A stretch of DNA of 64,000 nucleotides from an uncultured Tateyamaria sp. (GTDB lineage: Bacteria > Pseudomonadota > Alphaproteobacteria > Rhodobacterales > Rhodobacteraceae), in assembly GCF_947503465.1 (NCBI RefSeq), contig NZ_CANNDN010000001.1, positions 806,001-870,000 of the forward strand. Reading direction: 5' to 3'. Within the stretch, counting starts at the first letter, position 1, and the number at the start of each line of letters is the position of its first letter. The notes under the pieces are model-generated. The model saw only the letters and a list, made by a program, of their open reading frames with translations. It searched no databases and had not been told where the DNA came from. Positions 7,538 through 54,584 of this stretch are shown piece after piece. Made by a program: the position numbers and the translations under genes.

Positions 7538-7596
7538 CTCGCCTATTGAAGAGACACGGTGCCTATGCACCATCTTCATACCTCCCTGTTGGACTT

Positions 7597-7626
7597 GGCC
7601 GAGCTTCGCGCTCGGCCTTTTTTTTT
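7597..7626 (+). terminator. Rho-independent terminator
   Basis: GGCCGAGC, a 5-base loop and GCTCGGCC form a perfect 8-bp stem followed by nine T residues. It stands 137 bases after the LysR stop. It either ends that gene or ends a short independent RNA that would begin after about 7540. A tiny frame starting ATG at 7566 (MHHLHTSLLDLAELRARPF) runs through the terminator; I do not treat it as a gene. Confidence 0.8.
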
Positions 7627-17272: not shown

Positions 17273-17278
17273 GCTTTG

Positions 17279-17452
17279 GGCTGGAGCCGTCCTTGCTTGA
17301 TCAGCAACGGACAGGGGATGGGCGCACGATTCAGCTGAAATGCGGAGGGCCAGCTGAAATGCGGAGGGTCCCTGCAAGTGGAAACCGTATTTCTGCTTGA
17401 GCGGGTGACCATCCCCTGTCAGGCGGCGGATCGGGCATGGACGGCTCCAGCC
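17279..17452. repeat. Long imperfect palindrome between convergent genes, with internal 19-bp tandem duplication
   Basis: The outer arms are a perfect 14-bp inverted repeat (GGCTGGAGCCGTCC at 17279-17292 and its complement at 17439-17452). Further inside is a perfect 11-bp pair (ACAGGGGATGG at 17311-17321 with 17409-17419). Near the centre GAAATGCGG (17337-17345) pairs with CCGTATTTC (17385-17393). The unit CAGCTGAAATGCGGAGGG occurs twice, at 17332-17349 and 17351-17368. The whole can fold as one hairpin of about 174 bases. The 338-base spacer between purL and the VWA gene holds nothing else obvious. Confidence 0.7.
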
Positions 17453-17515
17453 TTTTGGGATGGTGAGTCCGCAGCGCCAAATCCATAATGGAATGCGCGC
17501 GCAGCGCGCTCCGCT

Positions 17516-18763
17516 TTACAACATGCCCATCAAGCGGTCGCGGTCGCCCACGTCATCGCGGCGCGAAATGACCTGTGCCAGGTCCTCGATCGAGGCGATG
17601 GAATGCCCGGCACGAAAGCTGTCAACATGCGGCAGCATGGCCGCGATACCCCGCGCGCGGGGCGCGAAATCCTCCCACCTCAACAGGGGGTTGATCCAGA
17701 TCAGACGGTTGGCGGACAGATGCAGCCGTTCCATCTGCCGCGCCAGCGCATCGGGGTCATCCCGGTCCAGCCCGTCCGTGATCAGCAGGACCACCGCGCC
17801 CTGCCCCAGCACCCGGCGCGACCATTGCTTGTTGAATGCCTCAAGACACGACCCGATCCGTGTGCCGCCTTCCCAATCCTGCGCTTCGGCGCCGGCCGCC
17901 TTCAGCGCCGCATCCACGTCACGGTGATCCAGGTGGCGGGTGATGTTGGTAAGCCGCGTGCCGAAGGTGAAGGCGTGCACCCTGGCCCAACCTGCCCCCT
18001 TGGCATTCGCAACCGCATGGAGGAAATGCAGCACAACCCGGGAATACTGGCTCATCGAGCCGGAGATGTCGCAGAGCGCCACCAGGTTCGGATAGCGGAC
18101 CCTGGGCGTTTTCCATTTCAGGTCGCGCATGTCGCCCCCCTGGCGCATGGCCGCGCGCAGGGTGCGCGCCGCATCGATCCGGCCCCGGCCTGCGGCCTGC
18201 ATGCGCCGGGTGGGCATGGGGTCCACGGGCAAGGTCATACGGGCCAGCATCGCCTTGGCCTGCGCCATTTCATGCGTGCTCATCTGTTCGAAATCCAGGG
18301 TCTTGAGCTGTTCTTCGGCACTCATGGTGAGCGCGGCGTCGATCTCGATCTCGGTGCCGCCCTCCTCCCCCTCGGGCAGGTCGATATCGTCGCCTGCCCC
18401 GTCCAGCAACGCCTCGGCCGCGCGCTTTTCGGCGGCTTGGGCGCCGCGGTCTTCCTGCACGCCGCGCACCGCCGGAAGCATCGCGGCCATCATGTGTTCA
18501 AGGTATCGCGGGTCGCGCCAGTAGAGCCGAAAGATCTGGGCAAAGACCGCCCGGTGTTCCGGTTTCGAGACAAAGCAGGCGTGCAGGGTCCAGTAGAAGT
18601 CGCGTTTTTCCGTGAAGCCCGCCTTGGTCACGGCGGTGATGGCATCCATCACGCGCCCCGTGCCGATGGGCAGGCCCGCACGGCGCAGGGCGCGGGCAAA
18701 ATGGGTGATGTTGCCTGCAAGCCTGGGCGTTTCGGGCAGGTCCAGGGGGGCGTATTCAGGCAT
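17516..18763 (-). CDS. CoxE-like VWA domain protein
   Basis: This 415-residue protein belongs to the CoxE/VWA group. The C-terminal half has the metal-ion-dependent adhesion site DISGSM (near residue 234), the GGTRIG threonine block and LLITDGLDRDD. The N-terminal half is helical and acidic in its linker. CoxE works with a MoxR-type ATPase (CoxD) in maturation of molybdenum-copper enzymes such as CO dehydrogenase. The same pair without cox structural genes is common in roseobacters, where its client is unknown. The ATPase gene lies directly upstream, separated by a repeat element. Confidence 0.85.
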   Translation of the reverse strand: MPEYAPLDLPETPRLAGNITHFARALRRAGLPIGTGRVMDAITAVTKAGFTEKRDFYWTLHACFVSKPEHRAVFAQIFRLYWRDPRYLEHMMAAMLPAVRGVQEDRGAQAAEKRAAEALLDGAGDDIDLPEGEEGGTEIEIDAALTMSAEEQLKTLDFEQMSTHEMAQAKAMLARMTLPVDPMPTRRMQAAGRGRIDAARTLRAAMRQGGDMRDLKWKTPRVRYPNLVALCDISGSMSQYSRVVLHFLHAVANAKGAGWARVHAFTFGTRLTNITRHLDHRDVDAALKAAGAEAQDWEGGTRIGSCLEAFNKQWSRRVLGQGAVVLLITDGLDRDDPDALARQMERLHLSANRLIWINPLLRWEDFAPRARGIAAMLPHVDSFRAGHSIASIEDLAQVISRRDDVGDRDRLMGML

Positions 18764-49029: not shown

Positions 49030-49701
49030 ATGCGCCGCACCGACCGCCTGTTTGACATCATCCAGATCCTGCGCGACGGACAGTTGCACACAGCGCAGGA
49101 CATGGCGGATATCTGCGAAGTGTCGGTGCGCACCATCTACCGCGACATGGACACGCTGGTGGCCTCCGGCGTGCCCGTGCAGGGCGAACGCGGCGTGGGC
49201 TACATGATCACCGAAGCGATCAGCCTGCCGCCCCTGACGCTCACCACCGAAGAACTCGAGGCGCTGAACCTGGGCATGGCCATCGTGGCGGAAGCCGCCG
49301 ATGACACGCTCAAATCCGCGGCCCGCACATTGGCGGACAAGATCGACGCGGTTCTGCCGGAACGCACGGTGGCCGAGGCCGACAAGTGGAAATTCGCGGT
49401 CTACCCCTTTGCGGATGCCGTGCGCGGCTTTGCCCAGATGCCCACCTTGCGCGCCGCGATCCGGGCCCGGCAGAAACTCCGGCTCACCTACCATTCCAAG
49501 GGCGACCGCATCACCACGCGCACCATCCGCCCCTTGCACATGGAATATTGGGGCCGGGTCTGGACGCTCACAAGCTGGTGCGAAATGCGCAATGACTTCC
49601 GCGTCTTCCGGGTGGACCTGATCCAAAGCGCCGAGGCACTGCCGGAAATGTTCGTGGACGAACCGGGCAAACGGCTTGCCGACTACGACCCGAACCTGTG
49701 A
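49030..49701 (+). CDS. YafY-family (HTH-WYL) transcriptional regulator
   Basis: The 223-residue regulator has an N-terminal winged helix (RRTDRLFDIIQILRDGQLHT, VSVRTIYRDMDTL) and a C-terminal WYL domain (near residues 135-215; LTYHSKGDRITTR). It probably controls its own operon through the perfect palindrome at 48583-48604. The start is one base after the stop of the ABM gene. WYL domains often bind small ligands or nucleic acids; the ligand is unknown here. Confidence 0.85.
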   Translation: MRRTDRLFDIIQILRDGQLHTAQDMADICEVSVRTIYRDMDTLVASGVPVQGERGVGYMITEAISLPPLTLTTEELEALNLGMAIVAEAADDTLKSAARTLADKIDAVLPERTVAEADKWKFAVYPFADAVRGFAQMPTLRAAIRARQKLRLTYHSKGDRITTRTIRPLHMEYWGRVWTLTSWCEMRNDFRVFRVDLIQSAEALPEMFVDEPGKRLADYDPNL

Positions 49702-49705
49702 CCCT

Positions 49706-49942
49706 GGTTTCGGAGCCGCCCTCGCTGCATCGTCGGACGACAGGCCGTTGGCAGCTTGCCAAGAGAAATCGCCGAGGGGCCCCGCAAGCGGGGATACGGT
49801 CTATTTCTCTTGGGAAGATGGCAGCGACCTGTCAGACGAAAGATCAAGCGAGGGTGGCTCCGAAACCCTGGGTTTGGTGAGCCCGAAGCGAAAAGGCCCC
49901 GGGCTGGCGGGTGGGCGAATTTGCGCAGCAAAGAGTGCACCC
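49706..49942. repeat. Multi-hairpin palindromic repeat element, copy 1
   Basis: Outer arms (49706-49726 with 49847-49867) match at 20 of 21 positions. A middle stem and an 11-bp perfect inner stem CCAAGAGAAAT/ATTTCTCTTGG (49759-49769 with 49803-49813) continue the hairpin up to a CCCCG-CAAG-CGGGG tip, about 160 bases in all. Next come a second hairpin (AGCCCG with CGGGCT) and a third, TTTGC-GCA-GCAAA (49920-49932). It fills the spacer between the convergent YafY and Lin0512 genes and ends two bases before a stop codon. Copy 2 is at 53201. Confidence 0.85.
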
Positions 49943-49944
49943 CG

Positions 49945-50280
49945 TCAGCGCACCGGCAAGAACACTTCAATCGCCGCCACCGCCATCACGGCCACATCAC
50001 CCGCGACCGGCACGTCCAGCCCGCCCCGCTCGGCCACAACCTCGACCGTCCCATAGGGCAACACCCCGGCAATCATCTGCACATCCACCGCCTCGGGCCG
50101 TGGCACGCCAATGTGCACGACCACGCGCATGCTGTCCCGGTCCACACCCAGCGTGCCAAAGATCGGCAAGGATGCCCCCTGCAAGGCCTGCTCCACCGCG
50201 CGCCGCGCCGCCTTGGTATCGTCGCGCCCGTGCAGGTCCACACCCTGCGCCATCTCGATGATCAACCGCTGCTCAGCCAC
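49945..50280 (-). CDS. Lin0512-family protein, second copy
   Basis: This 111-residue protein belongs to the Lin0512 family of small conserved proteins (RLIIEMAQGVDLHGRDDTKAA, VVVHIGVPRPEAVD). It starts at a GTG that overlaps the stop of the first Lin0512 copy. The two copies in tandem suggest a heteromeric assembly. Function unknown. Confidence 0.75.
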   Translation of the reverse strand: MAEQRLIIEMAQGVDLHGRDDTKAARRAVEQALQGASLPIFGTLGVDRDSMRVVVHIGVPRPEAVDVQMIAGVLPYGTVEVVAERGGLDVPVAGDVAVMAVAAIEVFLPVR

Positions 50281-50620
50281 CCTGCATCTCCACCGACACA
50301 ACCAGTGCGGCCTGCGCCATCACGGTCGGATTGCCCACGCCTTCGGGACGGGCCACATCAAGCCCCCCATGCCCCACGACAAAGGACGTCGCGCCATAGG
50401 GAAACACCTCGGCCAGAACGCTGGTATCCACCAGCTCAGGCCGTGCACAGCCGATATGCACTTCGATGCGCATATCCTCTTTGCCCACGCCCATATATTC
50501 GGCCAGATTGATCGAGTTGCGCCACAACGCCGCCCGGATCGCCCGCGCCGCGGCCTCGGTATAACTGCCCCGGCGCAGCGAGGTGCCCAGGCCAAACTCC
50601 ACAATCATCGGATCCTTCAT
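50273..50620 (-). CDS. Lin0512-family protein, first copy
   Basis: The 115-residue protein (PMIVEFGLGTSLRRGSYTEAA, EVHIGCARPELVD) is homologous to the next gene. Its ATG overlaps the stop of the ABC ATPase gene, so translation is coupled. A GGAGG site precedes it. Function unknown; the family is linked to transport genes here. Confidence 0.75.
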   Translation of the reverse strand: MKDPMIVEFGLGTSLRRGSYTEAAARAIRAALWRNSINLAEYMGVGKEDMRIEVHIGCARPELVDTSVLAEVFPYGATSFVVGHGGLDVARPEGVGNPTVMAQAALVVSVEMQGG

Positions 50621-51705
50621 TCCGCCGCCTCCGCGCTGGGAAATACATAGCACTTGTCGCGGCGCACCCGCAGCCACATGACGGTGTCCGGCTGGGGCAG
50701 GAACACGCCGGGGACAGTCGCCTTGATGACGGCCAAACCGTCATCCAGCCGAAATTCGACCAGGCTTTCGTTGCCCATGAACCGCGCCCGCACCACATGG
50801 GCGCGCGCCGCGGTGCCCTCGGCCGCTGTCGGCCCCGGCCCCACCCCGGCCCGGTCAAAGTCGATCTTCACATGCTGCGGGCGAAACACGATATCGACCT
50901 GCGTTCCATCGGCCACGCCGGGGGCCAGGAAGCGGCCAAAGGGTGTCATGGCCAAGGCCCCCTCCACCACCGCGTGCAACCGGTTCGCATCACTGAAAAA
51001 CGCAACCGATGCCCGGTCCACGGGCCGGGTATAGACGTTATAGGGTGCGCCCTGCTGCACGATCTGCCCGTCGCGCATCAGTGCAATCTCGTCGGCCATG
51101 CGCATGGCTTCCTCGGGCTCGTGGGTCACCAGCAGCACACCTGTGTCCTCTTCCTTGAGGATCGCGAGCGTCTCGTCCCGGATGCCGTCGCGCAACCGGT
51201 TGTCGAGGCCCGAAAACGGCTCGTCCATCAGCATGATGCGCGGCCGCGGGGCCAGGGCACGGGCCAGCGCAATGCGCTGTTGTTCGCCGCCCGACAACTG
51301 GTGCGGATACATGTCGATGAACCGCTCCATCCGTACTCGGGCAAGCATCTCTTCGACCCGTGCGCGCTTTTCAGCGCGGCCGCCGCTCAACCCATAGGCG
51401 ACATTGCCTTCGACGCTCAGATGCGGAAACAGGGCAAAGTCCTGAAACATCAGGCCAATTTCGCGCCGTTCCGGTGGCACGCGGAACCGCGTATCACAGA
51501 TCAGCTTGCCATCGACATAGATCTCGCCGGTGTCCTGCATCTCGACACCCGCGATCATGCGCAAGGTGGTGGACTTGCCACAGCCCGACGGCCCCAACAG
51601 GCACGTCACCTGCCCCGGTTGGATCGACAGGCTGACCCCATCCACCACGCGCCGCCCGCCAAAGCTGCGCACCAGATTGCGAATTTCCAGCCGAGGCGCT
51701 GTCAC
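50617..51705 (-). CDS. ABC transporter ATP-binding protein (FbpC/PotA-like) without permease
   Basis: This ATPase of about 362 residues has Walker A LGPSGCGKST, the LSGGEQQRIALARAL signature, Walker B LMDEPFSGLD and a C-terminal TOBE-type domain (DTVMWLRVRRDKCYVF). It resembles ATPases of iron or polyamine importers, but no permease or binding protein lies near it. It sits between a sodium/solute symporter gene and two Lin0512 genes. The GTG at 51705 is the likelier start; TTG at 51726 is possible. Confidence 0.85.
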   Translation of the reverse strand: MTAPRLEIRNLVRSFGGRRVVDGVSLSIQPGQVTCLLGPSGCGKSTTLRMIAGVEMQDTGEIYVDGKLICDTRFRVPPERREIGLMFQDFALFPHLSVEGNVAYGLSGGRAEKRARVEEMLARVRMERFIDMYPHQLSGGEQQRIALARALAPRPRIMLMDEPFSGLDNRLRDGIRDETLAILKEEDTGVLLVTHEPEEAMRMADEIALMRDGQIVQQGAPYNVYTRPVDRASVAFFSDANRLHAVVEGALAMTPFGRFLAPGVADGTQVDIVFRPQHVKIDFDRAGVGPGPTAAEGTAARAHVVRARFMGNESLVEFRLDDGLAVIKATVPGVFLPQPDTVMWLRVRRDKCYVFPSAEAAE

Positions 51706-51741
51706 GGCATCCCCATTCCCGATCAAAACAGTCGGGGAGTA

Positions 51742-53103
51742 TCAGGCCCGCCGCGCGCCCGCAAGCACCGCCGCAAATCCAACGCCCAGGACAAGGACAC
51801 AGATCACCAGCAACTGCTCGTATTTGTGCCCCTCCGGCAGCACGGCGGCAACGCTGGGCCAGGCCCGTCCGAAATAGGCCAGCGCGCCCAGCATCGCCGC
51901 AGCAAAGGCCGCCAGATACGACCAGACCGGCACCCTCCGCCCCATCACCAGACCAACGATCAGGACCGGTGTCAGGAACATGGACGCCGTGCCGCTGACA
52001 GCCACCGCATCAAACAGCGTCGCATTGCCCCAAAGCGTCAGCGCCACGCCCAGCACCATGAAGACCAGCATCACCGTGCGCCCGCCCAGCAACGTACGCG
52101 GTGCCAGGGCCAGTTCCTCGACCACCAGGCGCGCGGATGATGACAGGGCCGAATCCAGTGTGGACAGGGCCGACACCAGCAGCGACAGCATCAGCAGGGC
52201 AAAAACCCACATCGGGAACATCGCGCCCCAGGTCCCGATCAATTCGCCCTCATATGCCGCGCCCACAAGGCTTGCCTGAATGCCAAAGAACCCGAACCCG
52301 ATGATGCAGATCACCGACAGCCAGAACGCATGCAGGAACGACCGGCGCGTCGTGGCGTCATCCGCGATGAACCCGCGGTCCATCATGACGGGGTCATGTG
52401 CCGGATAGGAAAACACCTGCAACGCCGCCACGGCCAGCAGCACCCAACCATTCCACGCGCCCGCCGTCCCCGGCGCCGTCAGAACCGCACCGATCGAAAA
52501 ACCGGGGCTCAGCACCAGGTACAGGAACGCAATGCCGAACACGGCCAGAAACACAACCATCTGCACCACATCCGTGCGCAGCGCCGCACTCAGCCCGCCC
52601 CACGCCGAATAGGCAAGGCCAACCGCCGCCACCACCAGAATGGCAACCGTTCCGCTGCCGTCGATCACCGCCCCGGCGATCAGGCCCACAACCAGCAGAT
52701 TCGCGAACACTTCCGACAAAAGCCGCAGTGCAATCACCAGGTTATAGGCCCCGGTGCCAGCCGCCCCGAAATGATCTTCCAACCAATCCTGCACCGATCC
52801 GGCCCCCTGGGCACGCAGGCGGGCCACGATGAAGCCACCGGTCAGAAAGCTGCCGTAGTAGGCCGCATAGGCCAGCGTGCCCGCAATGCCGTAAAAGTAG
52901 CCTAGGATGGCGGCGTTCATCAGGGACCTTGCAAATATCCAGGTGGTGACCTGGCTCAGCACAAGAACCCAGAGACCCGGTGCCCGTCCGCCCATCCGGC
53001 CCGAGAAAAACCCGTCCACCGACGCCCGGCGGGGGGCCGCCAAAACGCTCGTCCCGATCAAGACGACAAAAAGTGCGATCAAGGCGATGGGGGTCATGAA
53101 CAT
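51742..53103 (-). CDS. Sodium/solute symporter (SSS) family protein
   Basis: This 453-residue membrane protein has about 13 transmembrane helices and SSS family patterns (SQVTTWIFARSLMNAA, AYSAWGGLSAALRTDVVQ, SALSTLDSALSSSARL). Its substrate is unknown. It is the first gene of the operon with the ABC ATPase and Lin0512 genes; gap to the ATPase start 36 bases. Confidence 0.85.
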   Translation of the reverse strand: MFMTPIALIALFVVLIGTSVLAAPRRASVDGFFSGRMGGRAPGLWVLVLSQVTTWIFARSLMNAAILGYFYGIAGTLAYAAYYGSFLTGGFIVARLRAQGAGSVQDWLEDHFGAAGTGAYNLVIALRLLSEVFANLLVVGLIAGAVIDGSGTVAILVVAAVGLAYSAWGGLSAALRTDVVQMVVFLAVFGIAFLYLVLSPGFSIGAVLTAPGTAGAWNGWVLLAVAALQVFSYPAHDPVMMDRGFIADDATTRRSFLHAFWLSVICIIGFGFFGIQASLVGAAYEGELIGTWGAMFPMWVFALLMLSLLVSALSTLDSALSSSARLVVEELALAPRTLLGGRTVMLVFMVLGVALTLWGNATLFDAVAVSGTASMFLTPVLIVGLVMGRRVPVWSYLAAFAAAMLGALAYFGRAWPSVAAVLPEGHKYEQLLVICVLVLGVGFAAVLAGARRA

Positions 53104-53200
53104 GTCTTTCGTACTGTGGTTTCAACCCGTTAGCAGCCCACAACACCCCACACCACCGACCTGACAGCTTTGTGAAAGGCGCGCCGCACATCGTGACCGC

Positions 53201-53449
53201 CTTTGTCTCGGAGCCACCCTCGCTTGATCGACGTGGGACGGAAAGACGGCGGATTTGCAAGAGAAATCGCCGAGGGGCCCCGCCCCGCGGGGAGACGGTC
53301 TATTTCTCTTGGAAAGGCGGCGGCTTTCTGTCACGCCAAAGATCATGCGCAGGGCAGGTCCGCAGACACAGGCTTTGTCTTGGTGGGCCCGAAGCGAAAC
53401 CTCCACAGGGTCGGCGGGTGGGCGAATTGGCACAGCCAAGAGAGCACCC
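53201..53449. repeat. Multi-hairpin palindromic repeat element, copy 2
   Basis: The layout is as in copy 1. The inner stem CAAGAGAAAT/ATTTCTCTTG is at 53258-53267 and 53302-53311, with the same GAGGGGCCCCGC apex. The middle stem (53233-53257 with its partner at about 53312-53336) has a different sequence from copy 1 but still pairs. The last hairpin is TTGGC-ACA-GCCAA (53427-53439). Its end is 7 bases from the stop of the minus-strand AlkD-like gene. The rest of the 353-base spacer shows nothing else. Confidence 0.85.
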
Positions 53450-53456
53450 ACCGACC

Positions 53457-54584
53457 CTACACGATCTCGAACGTGCCCTCCGCCCGGTCCACGCCATTTA
53501 CCTGAACAACCAGCCCGTGCGCCCCCGGATGCAATTCGAATGTCGTCGCATTGGCCTTCAGCTTGTGCACTTTCTTCAAGACCGATGGTGTGCCCGGCGT
53601 CACCTCGACCACCCTGAGCTTGAACACTTTGTCGCCGTGCTTGCCGTTTGGCCGCGCAAACCGGATACGGTAGTCGACAAGGGCGGGCACCGGTTCGTTC
53701 GCAGTCAAGGTCACCGCAAATTCCAGCGCATCACCAAGCGCGGCCCTTGGCGTTTCCACGTCCAGGGCCACCGTAACCGGTGCGTCCCCACGATATCCCA
53801 GCATCGCCATGGCCCCCGGATGCCCGTCCTTGATCAGCGTGCGAAGCGCATGGCGCCGCATCCAGTCACGCTCCTTCGGGGCCTGGTCGCCGCCCGCCTC
53901 CCACGCGCCCAACCGGTCCAACACCGCATCCGGGTCGGTCTTGGCCACGTCGTTCAGGTGATTGGCAACAGAGCGGGTGACAAACCGTGTCGGGTCCGCT
54001 TGCAGCCGATCAAGCAGGGGCAAGGTCTGCCCCAGCGTCAGCTCCACCTTCCGCGCCCATGGCAGCCTGGGCCGTGTGCCCTCGCTCACGAGACGCCGCA
54101 CATGGTAATTGTCGTCCGCCACCCACGACGCGAGCCGCGCCAGCGTCTCGTCCGGCCAGCGGTTCAGAAAGGGACGGATGTAGAATTCCATCGAAAACCG
54201 CTGCGTGGCTGCATGAAGCAGGTCCAGGGCCCGCTCCCGATGCCCCTCAAGCCCATGCCGCACGGCCAGAACGCCCGGCACCGCATGAATGAACCGCCCG
54301 AAATCATCATCGCGCCGCGACGGGTCCAGCCGGGGCGGCATCGCCGCCTCCAACTGATCCGCCATGGTCGGAAAATCGGGTGCCAGATGCGGCTCAAGGC
54401 ACTCCGCAAACCAATCAAGGCACTCCATCAGGGACCGTTCTGCAATGCCGGACAGGGCCGCCGCGTGAAAGGCGTCCCGGTCAAACCCCGGCACGCCGGC
54501 GGCGAACTCATCCGCCAGATCACCCAGACTGTCGGCGTTGAACAGCTGATCCTTCAGCGAAAAGGTGGCAGCGGCCCTGGCCAT
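53457..54584 (-). CDS. AlkD-like HEAT-repeat DNA alkylation repair protein
   Basis: This 375-residue protein has repeated helical blocks (NRWPDETLARLASWVADDNYHVRRLVSEG; RFVTRSVANHLND) typical of the HEAT-like AlkD DNA glycosylase fold. AlkD removes positively charged alkylated bases without flipping them. The C-terminal part is a separate beta-type region. Its ATG shares one base with the stop of the upstream SDR gene. Confidence 0.75.
   Translation of the reverse strand: MARAAATFSLKDQLFNADSLGDLADEFAAGVPGFDRDAFHAAALSGIAERSLMECLDWFAECLEPHLAPDFPTMADQLEAAMPPRLDPSRRDDDFGRFIHAVPGVLAVRHGLEGHRERALDLLHAATQRFSMEFYIRPFLNRWPDETLARLASWVADDNYHVRRLVSEGTRPRLPWARKVELTLGQTLPLLDRLQADPTRFVTRSVANHLNDVAKTDPDAVLDRLGAWEAGGDQAPKERDWMRRHALRTLIKDGHPGAMAMLGYRGDAPVTVALDVETPRAALGDALEFAVTLTANEPVPALVDYRIRFARPNGKHGDKVFKLRVVEVTPGTPSVLKKVHKLKANATTFELHPGAHGLVVQVNGVDRAEGTFEIV

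Follow-up and report, generated by a model that had tools for sequence, protein, structure and literature searches.

An apparently undescribed family of gene-end hairpins in the Roseobacter group with two alternative basal helices

ERIC elements and related enterobacterial repeat units, together with the intergenic mosaic elements of rhizobia, are imperfect palindromes that lie at gene ends, are non-coding and are composite in structure. Here we describe a repeat, which we call H, from a 64,000-nucleotide stretch of DNA (the window) of an uncultured Tateyamaria sp. of the Rhodobacteraceae (assembly GCF_947503465.1, contig NZ_CANNDN010000001.1, positions 806,001–870,000). H is a dispersed hairpin of ~190 nt found at gene ends, in which one strand at the foot of the stem, X', is complementary to both of the near direct repeats, X1 and X2, that flank the element. 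It shares with ERIC and rhizobial elements the form of an imperfect palindrome of 100–200 bp, scattered at gene ends, non-coding and accompanied by other modules. It differs from them in sequence and in clade, and to our knowledge they contain no counterpart of the X1/X2 direct repeats with a competing X'. In attenuators, one strand pairs with either of two mutually exclusive partners. H resembles them in that a single strand has two copies of the same segment as its partners, both pairings covarying in H, and it differs from them in lying behind genes instead of in a leader, in lacking a U-run and in occurring at many unrelated places.

Repeat-unit lengths of 103–168 bp are listed in the literature for elements of this kind. 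Repetitive extragenic palindromic sequences (REPs) are high-copy units of 20–40 bp with a GTAG or CGTC tag (PMC3733652). REPs, bacterial interspersed mosaic elements and further CGTC-tagged repeats resemble H in being palindromic, intergenic, plausibly transcribed and mosaic with other repeats, and they are found mostly between convergent and unidirectional genes, as H is (PMC3733652). H differs in that it is a ~190 nt element and not a 20–40 bp unit, and in that it occupies four places in its own genome, from which the Y1 (RAYT-type) transposase is absent. The main text of that source names no Rhodobacter, Roseobacter, Ruegeria or Silicibacter (PMC3733652). The HRC-8-4 motif is a Rhodobacterales hairpin with a conserved tip and a U-run that lies mainly between ccoNOQP and ccoGHIS; H is likewise a Rhodobacterales-only hairpin with a conserved tip, but is multi-copy at many gene pairs and has no U-run, a distinction drawn from the description and not from the sequence (PMC8632094).

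No family in Rfam 15 matched H at its gathering score, and matches at E values up to 10 were unrelated, mostly microRNA models, all below gathering. The microRNA matches, MIR918 among them (E 7.9e-5, 36 bits against a gathering score of 268), were set aside as chance matches of a long hairpin. A HEARO/omega RNA, suggested by GTGA before both of the first two copies, was also rejected: in copy 1 the TGA belongs to the preceding gene as its stop, and a cmscan search yielded no hit of this kind. No description of the repeat was recognised in the open-access literature searched, which included PMC3733652, PMC2864571 and PMC8632094. H thus seems to represent a family of hairpins at gene ends that has not been described before, in agreement with a reading of the window made from sequence alone, which could name no described family.

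That sequence-only reading had reported two copies of one multi-hairpin repeat whose middle stems differ yet still pair. Both copies are where it placed them. By blastn, 49700–49945 matches 53205–53449 (859205–859449 in the genome) at 76% identity (E 1.7e-40); the arms are 84% complementary in copy 1 (49739–49769 with 49803–49833) and 81% in copy 2 (53237–53267 with 53302–53332); and the last hairpin carries the reported paired change, TTTGC/GCAAA to TTGGC/GCCAA. Folding of the two copies beats 200 of 200 shuffles (z −10.4 and −4.8). However, comparison with further copies divides each repeat into two separable modules, H and a smaller hairpin, A. Copy 1 of H (49702–49889, plus strand; covariance-model match 49735–49842) is a long imperfect hairpin with basal direct repeats. 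Its end abuts the stop codon (49699–49701) of a plus-strand WYL/HTH_11 gene (49030–49701), so that X1 with the adjoining GGAGCC (49703–49717) starts 1 nt past that stop. The conserved apex, AAATCGCCGAGGGG...GATACGGTCTATTT, lies at 49760–49813, X', able to pair with X1 or X2, at 49860–49867, and X2 with its tail, TGGTGAGCCCGAAGC, at 49868–49889, all on the plus strand. Copy 2 (53200–53395, plus strand; model match 53233–53341) has X1 with GGAGCC at 53201–53215, X' at 53363–53370 and X2 with its tail at 53373–53395, again on the plus strand, and its nearest left gene is on the minus strand.

Module A, of the form GGTCGGYGGGTGGGCG..TTGC..GCAA..AGAGTGCACCC, is a family of gene-end hairpins in its own right, carried by many relatives. 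In the window, with no strand assigned, it forms a small hairpin with an internal loop at 49901–49943, adjoining the stop codon of a minus-strand Lin0512-family gene, and recurs at 53408–53457, where it extends into the stop codon of a minus-strand AlkD-like gene. The distances of 2 and 7 bases to minus-strand stops given by the sequence-only reading are correct as measurements, yet they are a property of A and not of H. Its view of the whole repeat as a single unit tied to minus-strand stops was mistaken; where H is near a stop, it follows a gene in its own direction. A 16-mer of module A found in 3 other genomes of the family was discarded, since by eye it looks like coding sequence there.

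A third copy of H, divergent and with a variant apex, lies at 17274–17475 on the plus strand (model match 17306–17429) between a VWA_CoxE gene and purL, the latter identified by eye from its sequence together with a match to the AIRS_C domain. The apex of this copy belongs to a second type, AAATGCGGAGGG...GGAAACCGTATTT, common to loci L054 and L056, and contains an 18-nt tandem duplication (17332–17349 and 17351–17368). The copy was not recovered by blastn with copy 1 as query. A short GC-rich hairpin, module B, follows it on the plus strand at 17480–17517 and was delimited partly by eye. From X1 to the end of the tail, H measures 160–207 nt, with a median of 190 (89 copies).

Further copies in related genomes had been named beforehand as a test of the repeat, and they were found by blastn, by an apex pattern and by a covariance model. 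Copy 1 has blastn matches in 18 of 41 genomes, namely 17/20 of the same genus, 1/5 of the same family and 0/16 of the same class. Matches fell within H in 12 of the 17 congeners and only near or in A in the other 5, one of which (G394) nonetheless holds H at the purL site. The apex pattern, run over GTDB species genomes, gave at least 118 stretches, mostly in Roseobacter-group records; among the 80 matches listed with titles, most are Tateyamaria, Sulfitobacter, Phaeobacter, Pseudophaeobacter, Roseobacter, Oceanicola, Thalassococcus and their kin, and some are unnamed alphaproteobacterial bins. After removal of duplicates, Ns and short ends, 115 of the 118 were kept, and some copies are present twice from two collections (for example L026/L174 and L031/L074). 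From a separate set of candidates, L010 and L058 (two places) were dropped by hand as chance matches and two more by fold energy. H copies also occur in three records titled Enemella evansiae (L088, L106 and L130, JAFKDC01 contigs), a title that is probably a mislabel. A covariance model of the apex gave five rows in the own genome, which correspond to four places (copies 1–3 and C1:185868-185975), one row being the other strand of copy 1. It matched at least 10 of 120 genomes of the family (one per genus, own included) and, in a class sample of 114 genomes, none but the own; these counts are lower bounds because 32–34 candidates were scored per genome. Genome G020 alone gave 23 rows, several of them both strands of one place.

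Changes in the stem of H tend to preserve its pairing. Each of 29 copies forms 47–61 Watson-Crick pairs, and an alignment of 29 copies (A4) underlies all statistics on core pairs. Across the 42 core pairs, 91.0% of cells hold a standard pair; shuffled sequences give 75.7% and slid versions 40–53% (maximum 53.1%). Both sides have changed in 26 of the 42 pairs, compared with 9–17 in slid versions, and in 191 cells, compared with 58.9 in shuffles. Kinship among the sequences inflates the comparison with shuffles; the slid controls are less affected. The selection on structure that the sequence-only reading had proposed from two copies is supported, pairing being preserved above both kinds of control. 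The apex is conserved and purine-rich, and at its mismatch, tallied in 114 of the 115 copies, C.T occurs in 96, T.C in 16 and T.T and C.C once each, where the search pattern admitted no 3' base other than C or T, whereas for the 5' base this limit came from the tally alone.

The foot of the stem offers two alternative helices. The near direct repeats that flank H are X1, a CTTTGCTT-like 8-mer followed by CGGAGCC, and X2, a like 8-mer followed by TGGTGAGCC. These 8-mers vary greatly between copies and are alike within a copy, agreeing at 6.99 of 8 positions within and 4.12 of 8 between copies in the 104 of 115 that could be compared; none of 1000 shuffles rose above 4.45. X', which lies between them, is complementary to both. 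Standard pairs fill 81.8% of the cells of helix X1:X', with a covariation score of 0.225 against 0.130 shuffled, and 92.6% of those of helix X':X2, with a score of 0.335 against 0.185. For both helices, the covariation score and the number of changed cells were matched by 0 of 500 shuffles, and the covariation scores exceed those of every slid version. We used this aligned test for the pairing of X'; an ungapped test of complementarity is weakly above shuffling (6.02 against 5.48 of 8 for X1, 5.98 against 5.37 for X2). Because the two helices share X' (columns 174–182), they are mutually exclusive, so that H, as in attenuators, has two exclusive helices both conserved by covariation. Individual sites, compared by eye, tell the same story. 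Between copy 2 (L002) and its counterpart L025 in a sister genome, one foot position differs in all three strands, with T to C in X1, A to G in X' and T to C in X2 (T-A-T against C-G-C, columns 10, 182 and 189), and a joint change of all three is seen between species at the purL site. Partial forms also occur: L005, L066 and L222 have X2 and the tail but no H, and the H of L065 is shortened. In L092, L099 and L111, from Oceanicola sp. isolate m2, the 5' end of H including X1 is replaced by other palindromic sequence, with X2 kept.

Such concerted change could be a product of mutation, if template switching at quasi-palindromes copies one arm onto the other and brings X1 into agreement with X2. 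The joint change of arms and direct repeats at orthologous sites fits this idea, as does the internal 18-nt duplication in copy 3. We nevertheless think it unlikely as the cause of the pairing, for the stems have not been perfected: column pair 21–170 is unpaired in 20 of 29 copies and 18–173 in 11 of 29. Moreover, GGAGCC is invariant in 29/29 aligned copies although its partner varies, and the apex mismatch swaps between C.T and T.C with just one C.C and one T.T among 114 copies.

Placement relative to genes and stop codons is also non-random. Gaps were typed with a codon-score gene caller of our own, which replaced a naive longest-open-reading-frame caller that erred beside the GC-rich H and missed the gene to the left of copy 1; other gaps of 60–900 nt from the same loci served for comparison. 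Gaps holding H (n=94) are convergent in 55 cases, with both genes on the minus strand (L-R-) in 23, both on the plus strand (L+R+) in 11 and divergent in 5, while the other gaps (n=284) divide into 46, 87, 69 and 82. With H masked (95 of the 118 stretches used) the figures are 49, 25, 10 and 11, and a tally that takes each gene pair a single time gives 34 convergent (Fisher P 2.6e-7) and 10 divergent sites (P 0.007) out of 74. At a finer scale (89 of the 118 stretches used), 58 copies have their left gene on the plus strand, and its stop codon lies −6 to 12 nt from X1 in 33 of them (median 7), or in 27 of 52 distinct sites. At the other end, 0 of 70 tails come that close to a minus-strand stop, and the median distance is 75.5.

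Convergent gene ends and strong folding would also suit an ordinary intrinsic terminator that is merely long. We regard this as very unlikely. No T-run follows the stem in copies 1–3, which have 0, 1 weak and 0 terminator-like sites nearby (chance 0.4–0.5); separate A or B hairpins come after H in many Tateyamaria copies (by eye); and a terminator needs neither a conserved apex nor two exclusive covarying helices.

Some signals favour the plus strand. The consensus folds to −47.7 kcal/mol as the plus strand and to −27.4 as the minus strand, 110 of 115 copies have the lower folding energy on the plus strand, and the exact stop-codon spacing concerns the plus-strand stop. We find it more likely that H acts as plus-strand RNA. 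In a reading that we hold with about even confidence, H is a mosaic, dispersed 3'-end structural element of the Roseobacter group whose plus strand most probably acts as RNA. We infer that it would be transcribed by read-through from the upstream gene and that the RNA would fold into a long imperfect hairpin bearing the conserved purine-rich apex. X' could then pair with X1, often just past the stop codon, and close the long stem, or pair with X2 and form a small separate hairpin, and this choice of basal helix would alter the 3' structure. The job of H would probably be to shape or protect mRNA 3' ends and to separate convergent transcripts. Long stems are natural substrates of RNase III type enzymes.

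Several observations weigh against this reading. At the foot, both-side-changed pairs were equalled by 38 of 500 shuffles for X1:X' and by 2 of 500 for X':X2; for further pair types the corresponding figures were 484 and 172, and the helix registers were chosen on the same sequences. Of 89 copies, 31 lack a plus-strand gene as their nearest left neighbour, as does copy 2, which argues against a strict 3' untranslated region. Copies in tandem orientation lean towards L-R- gaps (23 against 11; background 87 against 69). No promoter-like site was found near the three window copies, and the terminator-like sites near them do not go beyond chance. As to RNA or DNA, G.T mismatches outnumber A.C (411 against 168) by no more than the letters predict, and we withdrew an argument for the plus strand from wobble pairs because the mismatch letters are G-rich and yield the same ratio. 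Pairs common to the folds of both strands include just 35 GU against 26 AC, the apex swap from C.T to T.C is, seen from the opposite strand, one from A.G to G.A, and GNRA and UNCG loops, which would favour RNA, are uncommon (GNRA 1, UNCG 0 and CUUG 20 among 114 apex loops). Finally, H is absent from most orthologous sites in close relatives: 17 of 19 loci at the site of copy 2 and 14 of 19 at the purL site, 3 of the latter with a remnant.

A more specific version, in which the ribosome that terminates translation would read H as a 3' switch, a portable module carried behind unrelated genes, seems to us distinctly unlikely. Ribosomes reach beyond the stop codon, and the idea leans on that reach. 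Because 33 of the 58 copies preceded by a plus-strand gene have the start of X1 no more than ~12 nt from the stop codon, a ribosome on the stop would cover X1, leaving X' to pair with X2; with the ribosome absent, X1 would take X' and the long stem would close. The 3' end of the mRNA would in this way report how often its own gene is translated and set processing or the transcript boundary. Copies with no plus-strand gene before them would need another mode.

The same gene ends hold different modules in different relatives. At site 1, the place of copy 1, H occurs in 1 of 20 same-genus loci; among the 15 loci that are still convergent, 8 hold A (own included, 7 of them without H) and 4 a short AT-rich palindrome. 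At site 2, 18 of 19 same-genus loci have an A-like motif (≤1 mismatch) following the AlkD-like gene, though in one of the 18 (L226) it is far from the stop and looks decayed, and H is found just in the own genome and its sister G403 (2/19). It is therefore probable that H arrived beside an older A. The 19 purL loci, classed by eye, comprise 5 with H, 3 with a remnant starting with X1, 5 with A, 4 with the short palindrome, 1 with just a B-like hairpin and 1 with nothing. Across genera, the purL|VWA pair holds H in 10 distinct loci, those titled being Tateyamaria and Sulfitobacter, and 7 more have it at a second convergent pair, whose genes were recognised by eye as an HI0933-like oxidoreductase and murD, in Tateyamaria, Pseudophaeobacter and an uncultured Roseobacter; 12 loci are listed for each pair and the numbers fall to 10 and 7 because some copies are present twice. 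Several Tateyamaria copies have, by eye, the end of a 94-bp tandem repeat before X1 where the stop codon would otherwise be. The alternation of modules at the same sites indicates that a limited repertoire of hairpins, H among them, is exchanged at these gene ends. In our preferred reading of H as a 3'-end element, it would be gained and lost among A, B, the tandem 94-bp repeat and the short palindrome.

A multi-copy, dispersed repeat with presence and absence at orthologous sites is also what characterises miniature inverted-repeat transposable elements and ERIC-like sequences. H may accordingly be purely non-autonomous mobile DNA, its folded single strand recognised by a transposase supplied from elsewhere, its position at gene ends reflecting tolerated insertion, and X1 and X2 forming part of the cutting sites. 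This chief rival is a real possibility, if a doubtful one. The patchy occurrence in close relatives (1/20, 2/19 and 5/19 at site 1, site 2 and purL) speaks for it, the loci with X2 and tail alone resemble products of excision or slippage between X1 and X2, and divergent gaps are under-used (5/94, 11/95 masked and 10/74 sites, against 82/284 of the others). The Y1 transposase (PF01797), however, is present in only 2 of the 16 same-genus genomes searched and absent from the other 14, the own among them, so that RAYT-type mobilisation is not supported. No larger, transposase-bearing relative was noticed in the fetched loci, where no systematic search was made and Y1 was the sole class sought. X1 and X2 are flanking direct repeats, yet no target duplication was seen, and by eye X is not in the site-1 alleles that lack H. 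Two gene pairs carry H in more than one genus, and X1 and X2 have changed jointly there; viral contigs had no exact apex match, and plasmid and phage records no blastn match to copy 1. The sequence-only reading had left the choice between a mobile element and a 3'-end RNA, and each description holds in part: H is gained and lost between relatives, and its placement and covariation fit a 3'-end element. We infer any mode of movement, like the 3'-end role, from these comparisons.

Marine bacteria of the Roseobacter group are abundant, and H would, if this reading is true, give them a dispersed structured element with a testable two-state foot at stop codons. The long-standing question of whether palindromic repeats between genes are parasitic or serve as functional 3' ends could then be addressed in sister strains that hold H, A, B or nothing at the same site.

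Two further repeats accompany these modules. The short AT-rich palindrome, AGATTTTTCGNACGAAAAATCT-like, lies at convergent ends where relatives hold H or A, at L191, L195, L197 and L198 (site 1) and at L237–L240 (purL site). The 94-bp tandem unit stands directly before H or an H remnant at G000:C1:1037972-1038242 and C1:186014-186254 (L007 and L004). Elsewhere in the window, at 7568–7623, Rfam places SorX (RF02784), a small RNA of singlet-oxygen resistance, above its gathering score.

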